Positions 1,464 to 58,970 of a stretch of 64,000 bases of DNA are shown here, in pieces; position 1 is the stretch's first letter, and each line of letters begins with the position of its first letter. Both the position numbers and the translations under genes were made by a program. This stretch comes from Watersipora subatra (lineage: Eukaryota > Bryozoa > Gymnolaemata > Cheilostomatida > Watersiporidae). The stretch spans positions 39,284,572 to 39,348,571 of the forward strand of contig NC_088714.1 of assembly GCF_963576615.1 (NCBI RefSeq), given 5' to 3'. Below the pieces are notes generated by a model. The model searched no databases. It was not told the origin of the DNA and saw only the letters and a program-made list of their open reading frames with translations.

Positions 1464-4400
1464 ATTCTACTGGCTGAGCTTATACTAGTGGCCGTCATTT
1501 TACTGTCATGGTGTTGCTTGGCAATTGGGCAAACAACTCCCAGTCAACAATTTGAACCACTAAAGAGATCTGAGATGTTGAGGGCGCAGTCATTGCTTAG
1601 GTGGCTTATCAACAACCGCACAGAAAATAATACGAAGACGTTTAATGCTGGTTTCATTAGACTCGCATTCCACGACTGTGTAGGAGGGTGTGATGGCTGC
1701 CTTAACCTCCGCAATCCATCCAACGCAGGTACATGAGCGTTGAAAATAACAAAAGTGTGAACGCTTGTGATTTAAGTCAAGTCTTTGTCAATCCAATAAG
1801 TCAGAAGTTGTTTTCGAGTGAACCGAGCACATTTTTAACAAGATAAAATTTTTGTCAATGCCACTCAATTTTTTTTTAGAAATGTCGGGCATGTAATTAC
1901 AGGAGTGGGTATAAATGCACATGCCATGCCAGCTTTAAACATTTGTAACAAGGCTGTGTAGTGTCTCTTAAATAGGCAGAATAATCTCTGGTTAGGGACT
2001 ACAGGTTAATAGTCAAGGGTCAATGTTAAGGGTCAATGTTAATTGTTAAGTTAGGTTAGTCATAACGACTGGTATTGATTGAGGAGCTTGCGAAAGTGTA
2101 TAAGTGAATACAAACACATACATCATTAAAATATCCTTATTCGCTCATATGGATACGGAAGGGCTCAAGTAATTCATAATAGTACATCTTGACATGTTTT
2201 ATTTCTACTGCAGGATTGAGTTTTTATAAAGAGCCACTCGACCTTATGTACCGAGAGTTTATCTTTCCAAAGATGTCTAGAGCTGACTGGTACGCCCTCG
2301 CTGGTCTCACGGCTGTTGAGTATGCAGCAGCTCTCACCCGTAAGTTTCCTAGCTTAACTTGCTGTGACTAACTTGTGCTTGTATAACTATATACAAGCAC
2401 GAGTAAGTCTATATAACTGGATGATCGTGAGTCAATTGTTTCTATATATCTATAGAACTGGTTGGTTGTGAGTAGTTGTCTCGCTTTGCTATCGCGATAC
2501 ATGTATTTGATGGTTACTCGAAAAAGTTGGAATCCCATTAATTGACTTCCTGATCTGAAAATTGGGAGTCAGCTGGAGAAGGCACTTTCATTGCAAGGTG
2601 CCAGAGAAACATCGATTTGCGTACGGTCTTCCCTTCTCACTTCCTTCTTATTCTTCTCACCAAAGCTAATCAGTTAACAACAAATGATGGCCTCTCTCAT
2701 CCTGTCATCACTTTGAGTGGTATATCCTGATTATCATCAGCGCCCTCAAACGCTTGCTGGTCATAGTCTCAGTACGTGTTCATCGATTGTACGCTTTGCC
2801 TATGAATGCAGAATAGCATGCCCTTGAGACGCCTTCAACTAATGAAAGGTTTTTAATTTTGGTCTTACTAGAGAGGCTCCCCATGAGAGGGTGTGTCTTA
2901 AGAATATGCAAACCGTTATTAATTTTCTCTTATTTTTGTACCTAGCCTAGTTGCCGCTGGTTTAGTTTACAACGTACAATATAGCAAGGGTAGATAACTC
3001 AGGATAATAATCATGGTATAGTGCTAGCATTGAATCTGACAGCTCTATCTTTAACGGCAGTAAGATTGGGCAATTCTATTTCCTATAAGAACTTACACTC
3101 AGGAAATGGTGATCTTTGTATCACCTACATGTAGCTACATATGAATAAAGCTACGCGCTTTCCTGGCTGTCTGATAGCGGCTGCAGCGATAGCGGCAGCA
3201 GTGACCTTGGTCTAATCCTTCATTCTTTATTAAGGTAACTAACAGGCATTAGACGCAACTGGGCTGTATGACTGAAATGCTGATATAGAAAGTGATTTGA
3301 AAGAGATATAGACTGAGTGCTTTGCTAGCTAACTCACCTATGGGTGCTATATTAAAAACTATAACAAAGAAACTATAGGAGTACTGGCCCTTAAAGCGTA
3401 CAAGCGTGTGCATGTATTTTTAATATGAAAGTGGAATATTGAACTTCTGTAATGTAGGAGGTGAGAATAAGTGTTGCTCTGCCCTTTGTAAATACTCTAA
3501 TCCTATCTGTGGTTTTACAGACGCGCCTCAACCTATAATAAAGTTAACTCGTTACAATAGTGGCTTTATAAATGGCTTCATAAATCCAAGCCACCGTATG
3601 CCCAAATATATATTCATAGAAGAATACCCTGTATATAGCTTAATTCGCTTCAGAGCTTGAGAGTGATAAAAAATATTTAATTGCAAAATACTTGAAACAA
3701 ATTCGTTATAAAGTCTATACAAAAAATAAAATGCAAAAACTGATCTTTTAAGTAAAAACTAAATTAATACAGTAGTAACAAAAAAAAAGTTTTAATAGTT
3801 ACTTTACTTAGGAGACACACGAACAGAAGGGCGGACTCAACAATGCACAGATCAGGTGGTCGAGTGAGTGATAGAAATATGATAATTTATATATTTTATC
3901 ACTTTCATGTTTTATTGGCGAATTTTCCGCTAATTACTTATACTTACAAAACTGTAATGTTTTAGAAAGTTTTGGCCTCCCTACTTTAGAAGATAATTTA
4001 TAGTTTGAGACAATATCAGCTTACTTTAGTATGTAAGCTTAATATTCTAAAAGGGTATAAAGTTAGGATTTGACTGTATTTGTTGTAAGCGCTCCAACAA
4101 CAAGGGAAGCGTGAACAAAAAATGAATATGTACCAATTCAGAGACCAACCATTGAGGTCTACATAACTATGTACCTGTTCAAATACCACCCGGAGAGGTC
4201 TAAATAACTAGGTACCTGTTCAAAGACCACCCAGAGAGGTCTAAATAACTATGTAGGTACCTGTTCAAAGACCACCCACATAGGTCTACCTCATCAGGTA
4301 TCACATCTTGACTCATCCTTCTCCCATTCTTCTAAGATTAAACGCTAGCATTGACTTTGTTTTCACGCTTCATGATTTGCCTACCTAACTGGTAAGCCAT

Positions 4401-7400
4401 ATCCTGATAGATGAATTATTGCTGATAACAAAGTGCGGTTATCGTAAGCTGCTAGTTGCTGTGAAACACCTCTAAATTGTTTAGGATGAGGTATGTCAAA
4501 CTGTGTTAAACGCAGTCGCTCCCAGAGGCATTAAAGAATGAGTAAAACATAAGACAGTTATGTTTAATCACAAGTTTGCTTCATTTCTAGCTTGTACAGG
4601 CAGAATATGCATACCACCGATGACATTTAAATGGGGTCGCAGAGATTGTCTCAATGAGTCCCTTCTCTTCCGTCAATTTCCTGGTCCAAACAATGACCCT
4701 CGAGATACGATCAGACGCACATTTAGAATGAATCTGCTAGAAATAACAGCACTTATGGGTAAGTCAGCATTCTAGCAGAATGGCTAGATACCCTTCTGCT
4801 ACCTTGAGTTTTTAAGGCTAGACACCCTTCTGTTACCTTGAGTTTTAAGACTAGATACCCTTCTGTTACCTTGAGTTTTTAAGGCTAGACACCCTTCTGC
4901 TACCTTGAGTTTTTAAGGCTAGACACCCTTCTGTTACCTTGAGTTTTTAAGGCTAGATACCCTTCTGTTACCTTGAGTTTTCAAGGCTAGACACCCTTTT
5001 GTTGCCTTGAGTTTTTAAGGCTAGACACCCTTCTATTACCTTGAGTTTTCAAGGCTAGACCATTAACATATTAACTATACTTAATATCGTAGGTTAATAG
5101 GTCTATGGGCTAGACGTACTTCTGTTACTTTGAGATTTTAAATGTTGTTAAACTGCTTCAAAGAGATTTTTTGTCATTCAACCCTTTTATCACGCATGAT
5201 GACAAAATCTTGTATAATTATTATTTCTCTAAATTATTTGCCACGCGTCAGCGTAAAGTTAAAATTTTTTGCTTTTTGGATTAGCTTGTTAGTAACCCCA
5301 TCAAGCTAAATTATAGCTTTTACAATGCAGAAAAAGGCTTGTTTTTACCGTGTCTGTCAGTACTAGAAATCTTGATCCCAGTGAGATTATCTCTTCTACG
5401 ATGTATCTGACTCATTTCCTTTGTGATGCGCTTCTTTGTCAGCTTATGATGTTGAAACAATTTTTATCAACACCAACTATATGCTATCTACCATAGTCTA
5501 CAGTTACAAAAGTCTACAGTTACCATTGTCTACAGTTACCATAGTCTACAGTTACCATAGTCTACAGTTACCATAGTCTACAGCTAACATAGTCTAGAGT
5601 TACCTTTGTCTACAGTTATTACAATCTACAGTTACCATAGTCTACAGTTACCATAGTTGACAGCTAACGTAGTGTAGAGTTACCATTGTCAAAGTTACCA
5701 CAGTATACAGTGTAATTCTTATCAAGTATCCTTAGCGTAATCCTGTAATGTTATCCTAGTTTACAGATAACATAGTTTACAGTTAACATAATATACAGTT
5801 ACCACAGTCTCCAGTTAACATAGTCTACAGTTACCATAGTCTACAGTTAACATAGTCTAAAGTTACCATAGTTGAGAGCTAACATAGTCTAGAGTTACCA
5901 TTGTCGCGAGTTACCACAGTATACAGTTACCATAATCTACAGTTACCATAGTTGAGAGGTAACATAGTCTAGAGTTACCATTGTCAAGAGCTACCACAGT
6001 ATACCGTTACCATAATCTACAGTTACCATAGTTGAGAGCTAACATAGTCTAGAGTTACCATTGTCGAGAGTTACCCCAGTATACAGTTACCATAGTCTAC
6101 AGACACCATCGTCTACAGTTAACATAGTCTACAGTTACCACAGTTTCCAGTTAACATAGTTTACAGTTAACATAGTATACAGTCAACAGTCTACAGTCTA
6201 CAGTTATCATAGTATACAGTCACCATAGTCTACAGTTACCATTGCATACAGTCACCATAGTCTACAGTTAACATAGTCTACAGTTACCATAGTCTACAGT
6301 TACCATAGTCTCCAGTTAACATAGTCTCGAATTAACTGGGTATACAGTTAACATAGTCTACAGTTATCATAGTCTATAGTTACTATAGTCTACAGTTATC
6401 ATATTCTAGCCTGACTTGATTTGAATGAAAATTCTACTAGAGAACAGAGACATCAAGTGGCAATCGAACAGAACTTCAAATAATAGTACGGCTGGTCTTG
6501 TTCCTTTTTCCAGGCGCTCATACCTTAGGCAAGAACCATGGAACTGGAGCTACTTGGGTAAAAAATGAAACACGATTTGATAACCAGTATTACAAGGACA
6601 TGATAGATTCTTCTCTCCAATGGCGGAAAGGCGTGCGTCAAGGGTAGGTTTTTGCATATTCTTAAAATAACTCCTTCATTCGCAATTCTCCTTTTACGCC
6701 TTGCTTTGCCTGCTGAGGTTAATAACAAGTTGACCTCTAGAGAGCTATAATTGGAATCGGTGTCATGCGAAGAATGATGGATTGCATGACTGATCAGTTC
6801 AAATTCCTCAGCAGTTAGTAACAGAGGCGTAGGTTTGGCAGTGGTAATTGGTGTGACTGTATGCCATCTCACCAGGTTATGAGATGTACAAGTGGCGTAC
6901 TCTGTCCTCCGAGTGACTCAACGCGCTCCACGGAGTTGAAATTCTGAGATTCCTACATCGATCAATCCAAAGAAAGACCAGAAAAAGCTTTACACTAAAC
7001 TATGGATCGACTCTAACTCCCTCCTGTTACAATTAATTGGCATGATTTTGGTGGTTGAGGTAGCAGTAGTGTTTTTAAATCTGAATTCAATCACGATGAA
7101 AGCACAAAGGTAGTTAGGCAACAAGTTCTCCCTCAACCATATATGGAATATTTCTGTTGTTACTAATTGAAGGGATTACTGAACAGTTTGTTGTCATTAG
7201 GTTCCTTCTTTTGATCAAATCTACTCAGTAGCGCAAACATCATTCTTTAGACTTAGATTTCTAAAAGTAGAGAATCAGTGTAGCTGGAGACAACACAACA
7301 ACGCTTCAACAATGTCACCAAGCAGGCAGCATGCAGCTGCTAGATAAGTTGAACAGTACCAGTTTATTCAATCGCATACTTTATCACTAACACTTATCAT

Positions 7401-10400
7401 CCCACCTTTGCCTTATTGCCTATACCATAAGCGATACTTTTGTGCTCTAGTGGTTGTCTCCGCCTGTTTTAACCAGATCGTATCGTATTGCACGGTAATC
7501 TCAATCCTTAGTTGTACGAGATCTTCTCTTTTGAACTTTCAGATCAGCAAGCAACACTTGGTCTCATGGCACTACAGGAAATAATCTTATGTTGGACAGT
7601 GACTTCTTCATGGCTTTTGATGTCGGCACCAACTTTAGAGACTGCAACAATAACCCTATAGAGAGCTGTGTTAAGAGTGAAACATTTGCTTCGGTAAGTT
7701 GCTATTTCATATTCGCTGCAGGGGCGGATAACAAACAGAATTTTATTTGTTTCTTATGTAATATAGAAAGTATTTTAAACCTGTGTTCTATAGACAGCGT
7801 TTAAGCAGCATGCCTAACATGAATCGGGCAGTGCTAAAACCTGCTTCCCGCAGAAAAATGTACTTATGTCTGTCTTGGTAGTTCTCTATCACTAGCAAAA
7901 TTGAAGCAACCTTTCTTATTTTGTCAACTCATCACTCAAATGCTCCAATTGAAGAACTGATAGCTTCAGTTGTTTATAATGCAATGCGTGTTGTTGCTTG
8001 AAGGTGGAAAGAATGGCAGGAGACAACGATTACTGGTTGCGTCACTTTGGTACAGCTTTCACTGTTATGCTGAACAATGGTAACTTTGGCAAGTTAAAGG
8101 ATGTAGAGTGGGATACATTTGATGACACCTATAATGGAGACATATTTGCAAATAGAAGTGAGTGATCATGCAACACAGTTATAGCAGTACAGTGGAACCT
8201 CGGTTCTCGAACGCGCCGGTTCTCGATCAATTCAATTTTCGACCAAAAAAAATTGACATTTGTTCTTCTCGGAGCTCGAACATAAATTCGGTTCTCGATC
8301 ATACCGGAGCATGCGCATTAGACTTAAAGGTTCGAAACAGCTCCGAAAACAGCATAGAAACATTCATTAACAAAGGGAGAAGCAAATTAGGCTTCATAAA
8401 TTTTTTACAAAAAGGAAGGAACCATCTGGGACGACGTCTCCTCTACAGAAGAAACTTGCTAGGGTGACAACTCCTCTAATCGGGTTACCCAAAATAGTTT
8501 TGGAGAAAGATTCTCTTTCCAAGATGTGAAGTAACCGTGCCATCGCTGTTTACATTTCCTTTTTTACACGATTTTTGATGTAACTGATCTGTTGTATTTT
8601 TTGCTGTTTCGTTATCAATTTCCGCAATTTTTGGTATTGCATCTTAACATAGAATGTTTTCGATGTTTTAAGAGCAAACATGCGAAATATTGACTTTTGG
8701 TTTTCTGTTTCCCTAATCATTGATAAAAAAATATTTTATTAACAATAAACCCGATCTATATCTATCCGTTTTTATTTATAGTATGCAGTATACAGTACAG
8801 TTTATGGTGTAAAATGTTAAAAAAGTACTTTACAGAAGTTGTTTTCTTGGCTTGGAACAAATTATAATTTACATACATTAATTCTAATGGGAATGACTGT
8901 TTCGGATCTCGAACAACGTTTTTCGAACAACCTTCTGGCACGGATTAGGTTCGAGAACCGAGGTTCCACTGTATTCTAGCGCAGTTGTGTAGTGTGTCTT
9001 GAGAAGGTGCAGACTTCCAGGACAGCTATCTTGCTCCCTCTCTCCAACTTTAACCAATCGAGATGTGCGTGGCTGCCAGAGCAAGACAACTTTGTAGTCT
9101 GACTACCAAGCGGCAGTAATGTGCAGGAACTGTAAGAGTAGATGTAGTTTTCTGTCTATGCTGAAAAAGCTGGAGTTCTAGCATTAGCTTGAGGCCGGCA
9201 AGGTTTCCTTCCTCAAGCAATAGGAGCTCTCACTCACTATTGTGGTGTGATGACCTCTGTTGGAGACATTCTGCACTGATAGGCTTTGACCTATTGAACC
9301 TATCCACTGGATGCAGTAGGCCTATGTGTCCTTGCTTAGTGAAACGTCAATGTAGTTTGGTACTTATCTAAGTTTTTCAAAGAAACAACACATCAAAACA
9401 TGAAAGCTTTTGCACTTTTGAATATGTTACACATGATCAGTGTCCTTGAAATGCACACATGATCAGCGTTCTTGACATGTACACATGATTAGTTTCCTTG
9501 ACATGTACACATGATCAGTGTCCTTGACATGTACACATGATTAGTTTCCTTGACATGTACACATGATCAGTGTCCTTGACATGTACACATGATCAGTGTC
9601 CTTGACATGTACACATTATTAGTGTCCTTGACATGTACACATGGTTAGTGTCCTTGACATGTAGACATGGTCAGTGTCTTTGACATGTACACTGAAGTAT
9701 GACATAAATTCATCTTCATATTTTCCTAGTAATTTATTTTATAGATTTTTTCTAGCCCTGTTCTGAAATTTAAAAAAACAAAGTACTGTTCAACGCATGT
9801 TAGACATGACTTTTAGTAATGGAAACAAATACCAATAGTCTCTCCTATAGGATAGCCACAGTCAATCTTGTCTTTATAAGAGGGTTTGATTACCTCGTCA
9901 TTTGATATGACTTACACATAGGTTATTGAGGTCAGCCAATTGTCAACTTAGCATCATAGACTCTAGCTAAGCGTTGCTCTCTGTTGGAATTCTGTGTTCT
10001 TTATTGATATCATGTCGTATTCTGTAGATGCATCGGAAAGCACGACTGTAGCAGCTACCACTACACCAGCTACTTCTTCTAGAGTTACCACTACACCAGC
10101 TACTTCTCCTAGAGTCACCTCTACACCAGGTACTACTCCTAGAGTCACCTCTACACCAGGTACTACTCCTAGAGTCACCTCTACACCAGGTAATTCTCCT
10201 AAAGTTACCACTACACCATCTACTACTACAGGAGCTTCAGCACCAGCTACAGATACAGGTACCACCACCACACCAACGCGTACCACAATACCATCTACTG
10301 ATACCTTCACAGTGGAGGCTAGCAGCCCTCCCAAGATGTCGGTCAACACCTCATCTGTTTCTGCCTCAATTGTCACCACAACTAGCAACATAATAGCATC

Positions 10401-11004
10401 TTCCTTGATGTCAGCGAGTTCGGATTTATCCACACAACCATCAGCTAGTTCTGCTAGAGCGATAACTCCAATAATGAACAATGGTGCTAGTCCTGTAGCA
10501 GAACATAACAGAACAGATGTCGGTATAAGTACAAACAGTGCAGTAGCAGTAGAGATCTCAATGATGTCTACTCACCCCTCTGGCAATGATGTTTCTAACA
10601 ATAATCTGCCGAGTTCATTTTCCCATCTAACCACTACAAGAACATTGGAAAGTTTGCTTTCCAATATCCCTACGAACATCGATGTTACTAGTATTGTTCC
10701 ACTAACAACTGTTGCACAAAACATCACTGACCATTCAAATGCTACTCTCACTAGTCTAACTACATTGAACGAAAAGTCTGATTTGAGTATCGCCAACTCG
10801 GGCTCAATGTCAACCACAAAACAGTTGTTACAGGCATCATCTTTGGCTCCGCCTGCACCAGTTAGCACCATGGCCAATGGGAATACAGCTGATTCTAGGA
10901 TAGGATATCAATTTGAAAATGAAAGTTTTAATGCTGGCATGCGAGATCGCCTTCAAAATGCTCGACAAAGATTACGCTCTCGAACAAGTCGCAGCGGTCA
11001 CTGA
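1464..11004 (+). CDS. Secreted plant-type haem peroxidase with mucin-like C-terminal tail (5' end missing)
   Basis: Exons by phase-matched GT/AG borders: 1464-1728, 2214-2339, 3812-3863, 4604-4758, 6514-6643, 7543-7693, 8004-8157 and 10028-11004. They total 2010 nt, or 669 visible residues plus a stop. A hydrophobic leader (LILVAVILLSWCCLAIGQ) suggests secretion. The peroxidase domain (about residues 31-345) shows the distal site RLAFHDC with Arg66 and His70, a Ca-site-like GGCDG, the proximal GAHTLG with His202, and FDNQYY with Asp222. The His-His spacing of 132 is close to horseradish peroxidase. Family role: H2O2-dependent one-electron oxidation of substrates. The tail of about 325 residues is Thr/Ser/Pro-rich, contains 10-residue repeats, has no membrane segment and ends in a basic segment. 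The first visible exon begins at an acceptor (TTATTTAG), so the ATG lies in an unseen upstream exon; the only open extension starts at a GTG. The substrate is unknown. Confidence 0.88.
4132..4290. repeat. ~42-bp tandem repeat in peroxidase intron
   Basis: Roughly four units containing GGTACCTGTTCAAAGACCAC and AGAGGTCTAAATAACTA lie between the exons ending at 3863 and starting at 4604. No other content is seen in this intron. Confidence 0.8.
4777..5062. repeat. 34-bp minisatellite in peroxidase intron
   Basis: The unit GCTAGACACCCTTCTGTTAC plus CTTGAGTTTTTAAG is repeated about eight times, starting right after the donor at 4759. The rest of this intron is mostly the 16-bp array at 5488-6406. 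Confidence 0.9.
5488..6406. repeat. 16-bp minisatellite in peroxidase intron
   Basis: The unit CATAGTCTACAGTTAC is repeated more than 50 times with substitutions (AACATAG, TTGAGAG, ATACAG variants). It fills most of the intron between the exon carrying MNLLEITALMG and the exon carrying the proximal haem histidine. A longer block of mixed variants recurs at about 5860-6090, which suggests duplication of several units at once. Confidence 0.92.
6644..7542. other. Peroxidase intron without recognisable features
   Basis: A non-repetitive intron between the proximal-histidine exon and the LDSDFF exon. I see no coding, RNA or transposon signal in it. Confidence 0.6.
8190..8971. mobile_element. Non-autonomous TIR transposon (pogo/Tc1-like), 782 bp
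   Basis: A perfect 23-bp terminal inverted repeat begins CAGTGGAACCTCGGTTCTCG on the left, and its reverse complement ends the element on the right. TA flanks both ends (8188-8189 and 8972-8973). Inside are further TTCTCGA/TCGAGAA-like subterminal motifs. No transposase remnant is recognisable. The TA target and the CAGT ends fit pogo/Tigger-like members of the Tc1/mariner superfamily; that assignment is inference. It sits in the last peroxidase intron. Confidence 0.87.
9432..9692. repeat. 26-bp minisatellite in last peroxidase intron
   Basis: The unit is close to CATGTACACATGATCAGTGT plus CCTTGA, repeated about ten times. It contains the nested palindromes ACATGT and TGATCA. Confidence 0.92.
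10055..10230 (+). repeat. 30-bp coding repeats in peroxidase tail
   Basis: Six tandem units encode the 10-residue pattern TTPATSPRV(T/S) and its variants (STPGTTPRV, STPGNSPKV). They lie in frame in the last exon of the peroxidase gene. Such Thr/Ser/Pro repeats are typical of densely O-glycosylated mucin-like stalks. The repeat length is a multiple of three, so copy number could vary without breaking the frame. Confidence 0.85.
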
Positions 11005-11258
11005 ATTATGACTTCCTAGCTCCAAAAAATTCAGCAACTCGTTGTCATCTTGAGAAATGGCACAAGTATTAACAAATAAGTCACTCGCGTGGCAATATGA
11101 TCATGGTTATAGCAGTTGATGCTCATTCCTAACCATATGATGGTGTCCTTTGTCTCTTCCCAAATGACCTGTACAGATAATCTACTTATGTTTTATATTT
11201 ATTATAGTATTTATATGCAGAAATTATTGGTTGCTCATAAAAAGCTAAAATACATATA

Positions 11259-11925
11259 CCGTAAAGCTGTTATTTGAACGCCATGGTGCTCTAGTTTTCA
11301 ACCCTTTTCATATAGTGGCATTATTATAGGTGTCATTCAAGTAAAATGTATCGCTGTATTCTTCAAACACCTCGTCAGAATTTTTGCTTATCTTAGAATA
11401 GAATATATTAGAGAATGTCGCCTTCAATTTGCACTCACCTTCAAGCAGAGCGACATGCAAGAACTTACCTCCAGGTTGTCGTAGAACTCTAAATTAATAT
11501 ATGCATGAGGAAGCCGATACGTGCCTCTACCAGTGGATCACTTGCAACTAACCTTCGATGATCTTATAGCCTACATTACAATTGTTGGAGCTTTGAAGTT
11601 TTTACTTTATTCCAAAATTGAAGGCATATTTTCATTTTAAACAACATCTAACAAGTTTGCATAAAAGCTCATTGCAATTATCAGTTTGTCAAAACTAGCT
11701 TTTTATGCGCAATAGATGAAGAGTTATGAGCGTCGATCCACTGTAAGTCGAGTTTATATAACCGCAATGATGCTCTCAAATAATATGCTATAAATCTGCA
11801 AGCTTATTCGTTATATACATGTATTATTAACCTATCAAATGCTACAAGTATATATTCAAAAACAAATGACATAAACAAAACATATTTATAATATATTCAG
11901 AAACAAAAATTATCATTTAAAAAAA
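11259..11925 (+). mobile_element. Left part of a CCGTAAA-ended TIR element (truncated copy)
   Basis: Starts CCGTAAAGCTGTTATTTGAA after TA and aligns over more than 600 bp with the copy at 33677-34928. Shared anchors include CCATGGTGCTCTA, TTGCAAYTAACCTTCGATGAT, TTGCATAAAAGCTCAT, GCAATGATGCTMTC and CAGAAACAAAAATTA. The right inverted terminus is absent; similarity ends near 11925, where a minisatellite remnant begins. Confidence 0.78.
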
Positions 11926-11934
11926 AGAATATTA

Positions 11935-12015
11935 GCATCATGTATAGTCACACCATGTACTATACATAGTCTTACCATTTATCCTGTATAACCACATCCT
12001 ATACTATATATATGT
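11935..12015. repeat. Remnant of the 22-bp TAGTCA minisatellite
   Basis: ATGTATAGTCACACCATGTA and the following units match the array at 15530-16345. This short piece lies on the far side of the P-like and Copia insertions, so the two may once have been continuous. Confidence 0.7.
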
Positions 12016-56880: not shown

Positions 56881-56910
56881 GCTCTCTAAACAATTATATT
56901 TCCTTCATGC

Positions 56911-57366
56911 AACTGACCCCTCAACTGACCCCTCAACTGACCCCCCAACTGACCCCTCAACTGACCCCTCAACTGACCCCTCAACTGACCCCCCAACTGA
57001 CCCCTCAACTGACCCCTCAACTGACCCCTCAACTGACCCCTCAACTGACCCCTCAACTGACCCCTCAACTGACCCCTCAACTGACCCCTCAACTGACCCC
57101 TCAACTGACCCCTCAACTGACCCCTCAACTGACCCCTCAACTGACCCCTCAACTGACCCCTCAACTGACCCCTCAACTGACCCCTCAACTGACCCCTCAA
57201 CTGACCCCTCAACTGACCCCTCAACTGACCCCTCAACTGACCCCTCAACTGACCCCTCAACTGACCCCTCAACTGACCCCTCAACTGACCCCTCAACTGA
57301 CCCCTCAACTGACCCCTCAACTGACCCCTCAACTGACCCCTCAACTGACCCCTCAACTGACCCCTC
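56911..57366. repeat. Highly uniform 12-bp minisatellite (38 copies)
   Basis: AACTGACCCCTC is repeated 38 times over 456 bp. Apart from two units near the left end with CCCCCC in place of CCCCTC, the copies are identical. Four of the six frames are open (LTPQ, STDP, EGSV and GQLR cycles). Near-perfect identity points to recent expansion. Confidence 0.98.
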
Positions 57367-57369
57367 GAG

Positions 57370-58970
57370 CATAAGCTTTAAGCACATGCTATATTTTGCT
57401 AGAGCCTTTTAACATTAAAATTATAACTTTTTCTTCTTTGGCTATCCAGTCTTCAGTCTATGCCAAATTAAAGGCTTTCAAAGTTGTTCTACCAACTTCT
57501 TTCAGTGCCAATGCAGAAAAAATTGCCTTGACGGTTTGATGTCAATGTCGCGTACAACGAATGGTTGTTTGGCGTTAGGTTGACAACACGCTGCCAGTTG
57601 CTGGTTTGTTTGTTTTTGAACGATATCACCTGTCAATCAAACCACTTGAATGCATTGATTAGTTCTTTATCTGATACTATTCCCACCCTTGTCAGAAAAT
57701 ATCTTTTGAATAAATATAAAACTAATTGGCTCCTCCATTGATCTTGTATTGAATTTTACAGTCTAGCTGACTTTCTGACAAAGTGCTGACAATGCCAACT
57801 GTATTACCCTCAAGCTTTTGTAGCCTGACAATTGGACATGATTCACTTATTGAGCTCTAGAAATGTGAGATTTTTTGTTTAATAATACCATTACATAAAC
57901 TTTGCGTGCTGTTTTGAAACTGGTTTAAAGCTTTTAAACATGATAAAGAAATTTTTGTCAACAAAACAAATGTTGGCTGTTGTATCCTGGTGGAGCGTGC
58001 AAGCACCATCCTGGTGGAGCGTGCAAGCGCCTCCCATGATGTGATTAATCATCATTCTGTTTAAATATCTCTCGTCTCAAATTATAAGGAAAAGGTTTCT
58101 TGAGAGGGAAACTGAATAAAAGAGAGACCTTGATACAAATGCAAAATGTTCTAGACGTTTTCAAGCAGCTACAAGACCAAAGGCTACAAGACTGAGAGCT
58201 ATTAATGCTTTTAATAGCGACTTTTTGATGATGACATGAGTGTGGTAGAATTGTCTTCTCATCGTCTCGTGTCGAAGACGTAAATTTACACAGAAAGTAT
58301 TTTCTAGCACTCACTAAGTCATGCGTGAAAACATTTGGTAAAAAGCACCTGCTTGTGGCAGATGTAACTGTATTGAAGATATCCCGTATAGATAGTTTGC
58401 TCGCGGTAACAATGCATTCACGCAATTGTTTTAGCCTCATAAAGGTTCAGCTCTTTTTTAACTGTGTATTATCACAAGTAATGGTAATTAGTCAATTGAA
58501 ATAGATACAAAGGAACGGCATAGACAAAATAGCTGTATGCATCACTGAGCTCCTAATAGAAATCGTTCATTCTCCATCTATGTGTACCTACGAAATGACC
58601 GATGAAGCGAGCTGTCATTGGATCGCAGTCATTATAGCAAAAGAAACAAAAGATTTGAGGCCTGATTATGCGCTGGCCCTTTATACTACGAGATATTCTT
58701 GAATGAGAACATTATGCAAACAGAGACCATCGATTATATAAGTCAGTAATGAGGCAGAATTATAGCAATTAGCTAATTGTTTCCATCCAGAACTATATGT
58801 CGTCTCTCATCCAGCACTAATCCCAAAATCTCTCTGTTGAGCGGCTTTCTCGAGGTCTTCAATTAGCTCTATTTAGACCAAGCTCGAAAATAAAATTGTT
58901 AAAATTTCAGTTTTCATTTTACTAGATGTTATCAACTTTTGCTTATAGTAAAGGGTTTATTGTTTCTATC
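57370..58970. other. Stretch without a supportable gene
   Basis: A 24-bp direct duplication (ATCCTGGTGGAGCGTGCAAG…) lies at about 57988-58035. A 131-codon minus-strand ORF at 58045-58440 has no recognisable motif. Confidence 0.5.

Follow-up and report, generated by a model that had tools for sequence, protein, structure and literature searches.

The 64,000-nucleotide stretch of the Watersipora subatra genome analysed here (assembly GCF_963576615.1, contig NC_088714.1, positions 39,284,572 to 39,348,571; hereafter the window) carries a gene for a plant-type haem peroxidase whose predicted product continues into a long, mucin-like tail. The contig of the window, C7, is 66.3 Mb long, and the assembly has 784 Mb in 239 contigs. 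The gene occupies positions 1464–11004 on the plus strand, where seven in-phase exons were placed and their coordinates verified. Together with a first exon upstream of the window, they form the following model, given with the repeat found in the tail:

1464–1728, plus strand: exon 2 of 8, with the signal-peptide end ILLAELILVAVILLSWCCLAIGQ, the N-terminus and the distal haem pocket FIRLAFHDCVGGCDGCLNL
2214–2339, plus strand: exon 3, peroxidase domain MSRADWYALAGLTAVEYAAALT; a break near here recurs in the paralogues
4591–4758, plus strand: exon 4, CTGRICIPPMTFKWGRRDC...LLEITALM
6514–6643, plus strand: exon 5, with the proximal His (GAHTLGK) and a proximal Trp at the position of CcP Trp191 (ATWVKNETRFDNQYY)
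7543–7693, plus strand: exon 6, with the buried Asp (NLMLDSDFF) and a Cys pair
8004–8157, plus strand: exon 7, the last helices of the domain, VERMAGDNDYWLRHFGTAFTVMLNNGN...FANR
10028–11004, plus strand: exon 8, the 977-nucleotide mucin-like tail exon, with a basic C-terminal end (MRDRLQNARQRLRSRTSRSGH) and the stop codon at 11002–11004
10057–10224, plus strand: tandem repeat within the tail, 30 nucleotides (10 amino acids, VTSTPGTTPR) in 5.6 copies, from a repeat scan

All six introns between these exons run from GT to AG with compatible phases, and the joined exons read through 656 open codons before the stop. Because an in-frame TAG directly precedes position 1464, a first exon was needed upstream. 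The upstream 10 kb were scanned for ATG-bearing exons that end in phase 0 at a donor matching at least 7 of 9, which gave six rows at four donors. The chosen exon (C7:39283808–39283831, 24 nucleotides, ATG...AGG followed by gtgagt, donor 8 of 9) lies 0.74 kb before the window and, joined to exon 2, reads MYFMKSSR + ILLAELILVAVILLSWCCLAIGQ, a signal peptide as judged by eye and hydropathy. The complete model comprises 664 amino acids, eight exons and seven junctions, with splicing predicted from splice signals, frame and homology. The many introns noted in a preliminary description of the locus were thus recovered, while its count of eight junctions was wrong, since six junctions fall in the window and a seventh joins the upstream exon.

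A Pfam search placed the window protein in the plant-type peroxidase family PF00141 with 72.9 bits (E 4.5e-20), above the curated cut-off of 27 bits and with His78 and His197 both aligned, and the score rose to 75.3 bits (E 8.1e-21) when the first exon was added. PF00141 was the sole match of the protein at E<=0.001. This profile search, suggested in the preliminary description, bears out its proposal of a plant-type haem peroxidase in an animal genome. The active-site residues it had pointed to (distal Arg and His, proximal His and buried Asp) were likewise all found in the alignment with HRP, APX, LiP and CcP, where the distal Arg/Phe/His (RLAFH), the proximal His (GAHTLG) and the buried Asp (LDSDFF) fall into register. 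Across the window domain and the four paralogues aligned with it, R37, F40, H41, H160, W172 and D221 of the first row were invariant; they correspond to Arg74, Phe77, His78, His197, Trp209 and Asp258 of the 664-residue protein, counted from the first Met. The names and roles attached here to active-site residues, including that of APX Arg172 in binding ascorbate, are those we take to apply.

The active site is, as far as the alignment indicates, a mosaic, with a distal side like that of classes II and III (Phe, HDC...C..D) and a proximal side like that of class I (Trp). The best-scoring solved relatives were chains of yeast CcP (2.2e-12 with the single protein, 1.2e-31 with a profile of five family members). 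With CcP the window protein shares the proximal Trp at the spacing of Trp191, an ALMGAHTLGK-type segment and the buried Asp; Trp209 stands seven residues before FDN, a spacing identical in CcP and APX. CcP, however, is a mitochondrial enzyme with a distal Trp, and the window protein was not filed with it because of its distal Phe and signal-peptide-like N-terminus, to which the HDC...C loop adds a further difference. Class I membership with APX is also not indicated, since the distal residue is Phe instead of Trp and no residue aligns with the ascorbate-site Arg172, the loop being four residues shorter than in APX. HRP C1A of class III resembles the window protein in its distal Arg/Phe/His, the HDC...C..D segment, secretion and eight Cys, the number also counted in the mature window domain, but the proximal residue is Trp instead of Phe and Cys columns were seen to match only at the HDC...C pair. 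A distal loop rich in Cys would suit an enzyme that works outside the cell. Finally, the surface Trp of class II LiP, which we take to be Trp171, is replaced by Ala (EITALMGAHT vs ELVWMLSAHS in LiP).

The tail encoded by exon 8 has 325 residues, as the preliminary description had estimated, with 57 Ser, 65 Thr and 25 Pro (45% Ser/Thr/Pro, and 61–67% over the first 108 residues). Being rich in these residues and carrying tandem repeats, it qualifies as mucin-like, and heavy O-glycosylation would be expected. Six N-glycosylation sequons were found, no Cys is present, and the end is basic (+4 over residues 271–324). Four of the 52 window frames of at least 100 amino acids have a higher Ser/Thr/Pro share and resemble simple repeats, so that composition alone is weak evidence for the tail. 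Stronger evidence appears to come from an open, mostly non-repetitive exon of 977 nucleotides in phase with the domain. This exon sits in a 345-codon open frame, and none of 1000 dinucleotide shuffles of positions 8158–12000 reached 325 codons (maximum 219). Neither a transmembrane-hydropathy segment (maximum 1.09) nor a hydrophobic C-terminal end was detected in the tail. As transmembrane hydropathy is never reached, the tail is read as a secreted spacer and not as an anchor, so that the tether first proposed holds in the sense of a linker but not in that of a membrane attachment.

The peroxidase is one of a family in its own genome. A search with the domain protein returned 46 exon matches, of which six fell on the window gene itself. 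By manual count, the exon with the distal His was covered at 25 places including the window, 17 at E<=0.05 and eight weaker (0.08–1.8), which leaves 16 further loci at E<=0.05; some of the 25 places may be fragments, because they were seen as the distal-His exon alone. The PF00141 profile itself found nothing in the genome at E<=0.001, probably as one exon alone gives too short a match to stand out in 784 Mb. A home-made profile recovered further exons, correctly ordered, in most loci examined at length. Exon breaks near profile positions 56 and 154 recurred wherever both sides were present. The break near position 100 was absent in two genes at C7:4.9 Mb, and that near 256 was present in the window gene and in the paralogues A (C7:41.581 Mb), A2 (C7:41.597) and B (C7:41.646) but absent in the gene at C1:7.584 and in three genes on C11, where one frame spans it. 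Since break positions are common to some loci and not to others, intron positions are shared in part.

For the tree, the 15 of the 25 places with enough sequence were combined with HRP, LiP, APX and CcP to give 19 rows. The 15 own-genome rows split from the four references at 95/90. The window gene grouped with A, A2 and B at 80/91, and C1:7.584 with the three C11 genes at 86/88. Several warnings apply to this tree, namely the long rows of LiP, HRP, B and paralogue C (C7:41.663), the meeting of HRP with LiP, an odd composition of APX, and two rows that are less than half filled. Within the family, the distal Arg is replaced by Gln in three of the 15 own-genome rows (C9:38.345, C7:4.879 and C7:4.890 Mb; VQxxFHxC), and these members may have a changed or lost activity. 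The proximal Trp is kept in 12 of the 14 own-genome rows that cover the position, with Tyr in C and Phe at C1:66.825.

Extensions beyond the domain were found in all five genes located at C7:39.3–41.7 Mb, the window gene included, and are of four kinds. In A and A2, near-identical duplicates that therefore count as one event, the last-helix exon itself continues into a Thr/Pro linker PGTLPTFAPTTTTPTTTTPKP; three in-phase tail exons follow the linker exon, with a possible in-phase join to a fourth. With all four tail exons and phase-compatible joins, the MAM domain (PF00629) scored 29.9 bits in A and 29.3 bits in A2, against a cut-off of 26.4. The score was 26.8 bits when the third tail exon was extended without a donor, and the first two tail exons only gave no Pfam match. 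Longer joins at 32.7, 32.8 and 35.6 bits were not relied on, the end of their third exon having no good GT donor. As the score depends on where the tail exons end, a MAM domain in A and A2 is probable by predicted splicing, not certain. A Tudor match in the same tails was weak and below its own cut-off in every run, and the Pfam search of the window protein gave no MAM match. In paralogue C, the next in-phase exon (EIPPPPRSSAAPPATAAPAPRLVPAGRRLAGRRNRGRDRRRRRQRGG...) runs to a stop as a Pro/Ala- and Arg-rich tail, and B has an in-phase basic exon (INRRKVTKAERQRRKAARRANRQ).

About 4 kb downstream of B lies an open frame with 52% Ser/Thr/Pro (C7:41652884–41653612, offset 8061–8789 of C7:41644824). 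As a tail of B it was set aside, being out of phase with both the last domain exon and the basic exon, with no bridging exon that passed the thresholds; it could be the tail of B or a separate mucin-like gene.

On other contigs the genes probably end at the domain in four cases. C1:7.584 stops directly after it (LKDVSS, then the stop), and the three C11 genes have a stop at the matching place, where two of the three carry GGTATG, which could be a donor. On C7 the gene ends surveyed were those at 39.3–41.7 Mb and that of a frame at 10.18 Mb, whose stop right at the domain speaks against a simple rule for this contig.

Earlier work describes, among metazoans, a clade of putative ascorbate peroxidases that are mostly secretable, with members such as a Hydra viridis enzyme, AqAPx of Porifera and CaroAPx1 of Ecdysozoa (Zamocky et al. 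2014, PMC4232752; also PMC4420034). Since an animal clade has been described (PMC4232752, PMC4420034, PMC5571214), a plant-type peroxidase in an animal is not surprising by itself. The window gene, an animal gene with a signal peptide by eye and hydropathy, resembles this clade in its PF00141 domain, in the predicted secretion of most members and in its position outside the classical plant APX, and most likely belongs to it. It differs in its 325-residue mucin-like tail and in having relatives with other tails, whereas the available parts of the clade's description mention none.

Taking these results together, we put at roughly 0.6 the probability that the gene encodes a secreted PF00141 peroxidase of the animal clade, held by its mucin-like tail in mucus, adhesive or matrix, where it would oxidise phenolic or protein-surface donors. 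The signal peptide would send the enzyme into the secretory path, and haem b would be bound via His197, hydrogen-bonded to the buried Asp258. Arg74 and His78 would split H2O2, and small phenolic or protein-surface donors would then be oxidised by single electrons. If spliced in the animal as predicted and heavily O-glycosylated, the tail would stand off the domain as a stiff spacer, and its cationic end may help to keep the enzyme within mucus, an adhesive or the extracellular matrix. There it could cross-link or harden the gel, or produce antimicrobial oxidants. The most likely role in such secretions would be one-electron oxidation of phenolic or tyrosine substrates, a function that we infer.

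For mucus and adhesion there is a published lead. Transcripts specific to the basal disc of Hydra, its adhesive disc, include two PF00141 peroxidases of 305 and 365 amino acids, annotated as putative ascorbate peroxidases, and the roles discussed for them are curing of the adhesive or an antioxidant function (PMC5080974). Like the window protein they are animal PF00141 peroxidases, on the Hydra side from an adhesive-secretory tissue; compared by length only, they are too short for a tail of this size.

Several observations weigh against this interpretation. The tail exon is joined to the domain in the model solely by phase, splice signals and position, and when positions 8157–8166 are read through the last donor the protein ends ...NRSE, with a stop after two codons, so that intron retention could possibly yield a tail-less enzyme. 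Support for the grouping with A, A2 and B is only moderate (80/91), the rows of B and C are long, and C remained unplaced in the tree. The peroxidases compared from outside this genome were HRP, LiP, APX and CcP. With three tail exons, the third ended at its donor (7 of 9), MAM in A and A2 reaches 24.3 bits, below the cut-off of 26.4, and the frame at C7:10.18 Mb closes without an extension.

The same protein might instead serve to remove H2O2, as an ascorbate-peroxidase-like antioxidant, or act as an antimicrobial source of oxidants, and not cross-link anything; this is the strongest competitor, though we regard it as unlikely. Its relatives bear the name of putative ascorbate peroxidases, for which a role against marine microbes has been proposed in sponges and one against host defences in sea lice (PMC4232752). 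Against this reading stand the missing aligned counterpart of APX Arg172 and the mucin-like tail, which points to a fixed place in a matrix.

It is less probable still that the enzyme is a short secreted peroxidase and that the model has fused to it, as an artefact, a Thr/Ser-rich frame (at 10028) which in fact belongs to another gene or serves as an alternative last exon. The last intron is 1.87 kb long and contains a mobile element, read-through of the donor terminates at once, and the four paralogues at C1:7.584 and on C11 appear to stop at the domain. On the other hand, the phases of donor and acceptor are compatible, no signal peptide of its own was seen by eye upstream of the tail frame, and four C7 paralogues are extended too. 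In A and A2 no junction is needed for the extension, because it begins within the last-helix exon.

A degenerate, inactive copy that serves as a structural or binding protein is very improbable; some paralogues have lost the distal Arg (Gln in three of 15) or the proximal Trp (two of 14), but the window gene retains its catalytic residues and its 656-codon open frame.

Least credible of all is that the gene came from a contaminating plant, alga or fungus or was acquired by a recent horizontal transfer, a concern that the preliminary description had raised as contamination from another eukaryote. The superfamily was long called non-animal, and HvAPX1 of green Hydra has been suggested to derive from algae by a possible transfer (PMC12194522). 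Both contamination and an isolated recent transfer are nevertheless very unlikely because a multigene family is present in the own genome, with 16 further loci at E<=0.05 on several contigs and breaks at shared positions where followed, and the window sits on a 66-Mb contig with adjoining THAP and CD225 frames and a GC content like that of its surroundings. In scans that reach close relatives only, 26 stretches of bacterial and archaeal contigs and one of viral contigs matched a pattern and none was confirmed, so no close relative appeared there. A genome study describes CcP-like genes of non-plant species as hard to place, with contamination not excluded (PMC7730656).

Returning to the secreted, retained enzyme, the window gene would belong to a C7 group (39.3–41.7 Mb) of an expanded family, in which various C-terminal modules were added to a common catalytic domain. 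We tentatively suggest, at somewhat less than even odds, that this one group diversified by C-terminal targeting modules (an O-glycosylated mucin tail, a Thr/Pro linker with MAM, and cationic Arg-rich tails) that would place the enzyme in different extracellular gels or on different surfaces, as an independent animal counterpart of the fungal Hybrid B peroxidases. As reported for these, C-terminal fusions of Hybrid B (WSC, starch-binding) are so far fungal only, and the vast majority of the other members consist of one domain (PMC5571214). Common to both would be a peroxidase domain fused to a C-terminal, sugar-related module; the difference lies in the fungal host and other modules there, and in mucin-like, MAM or Arg-rich modules in an animal here. 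Novelty seems to lie in the modular C-terminus and the diversity of tails, not in the presence of an animal peroxidase, and no mucin- or MAM-fused animal PF00141 protein was found among the literature matches listed, as far as their titles and abstract openings tell. Hardening of extracellular polymers is the classic task of plant-type peroxidases, a task for which animals are commonly assumed to employ an unrelated superfamily of peroxidases. In this large tailed family of one animal, individual genes can be named as candidates for the curing of mucus, glue or cuticle, and the natural differences between the tails offer material for testing how gels hold secreted enzymes. If the suggestion is true, it would be an animal parallel to peroxidase fusions reported as fungal only.

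Around the gene, two of nine other window frames matched in a Pfam scan, namely THAP (13241, 2.5e-15) and CD225 (21841, 3.3e-14). Four long frames between 36534 and 46390 gave no Pfam matches and are Ser- and charge-rich; they are perhaps the exons of one large gene. At 56900–57400, a long 12-nucleotide repeat whose frames read (TDPS)n or (TPQL)n is probably a simple repeat and not a gene. The mobile element of the last intron is the following:

8188–8973, no strand assigned: 0.79-kb element with 25-bp perfect terminal inverted repeats (TACAGTGGAACC...; TACAGTGGAACCTCGGTTCTCGAAC), intronic and outside the protein

It presumably resembles a non-autonomous element of the pogo/Tigger type. Five long tandem-repeat arrays, at 1–543, 737–1422, 4782–5060, 5489–6408 and 9428–9692 with periods of 47, 19, 34, 16 and 26, all lie in introns of the eight-exon model.

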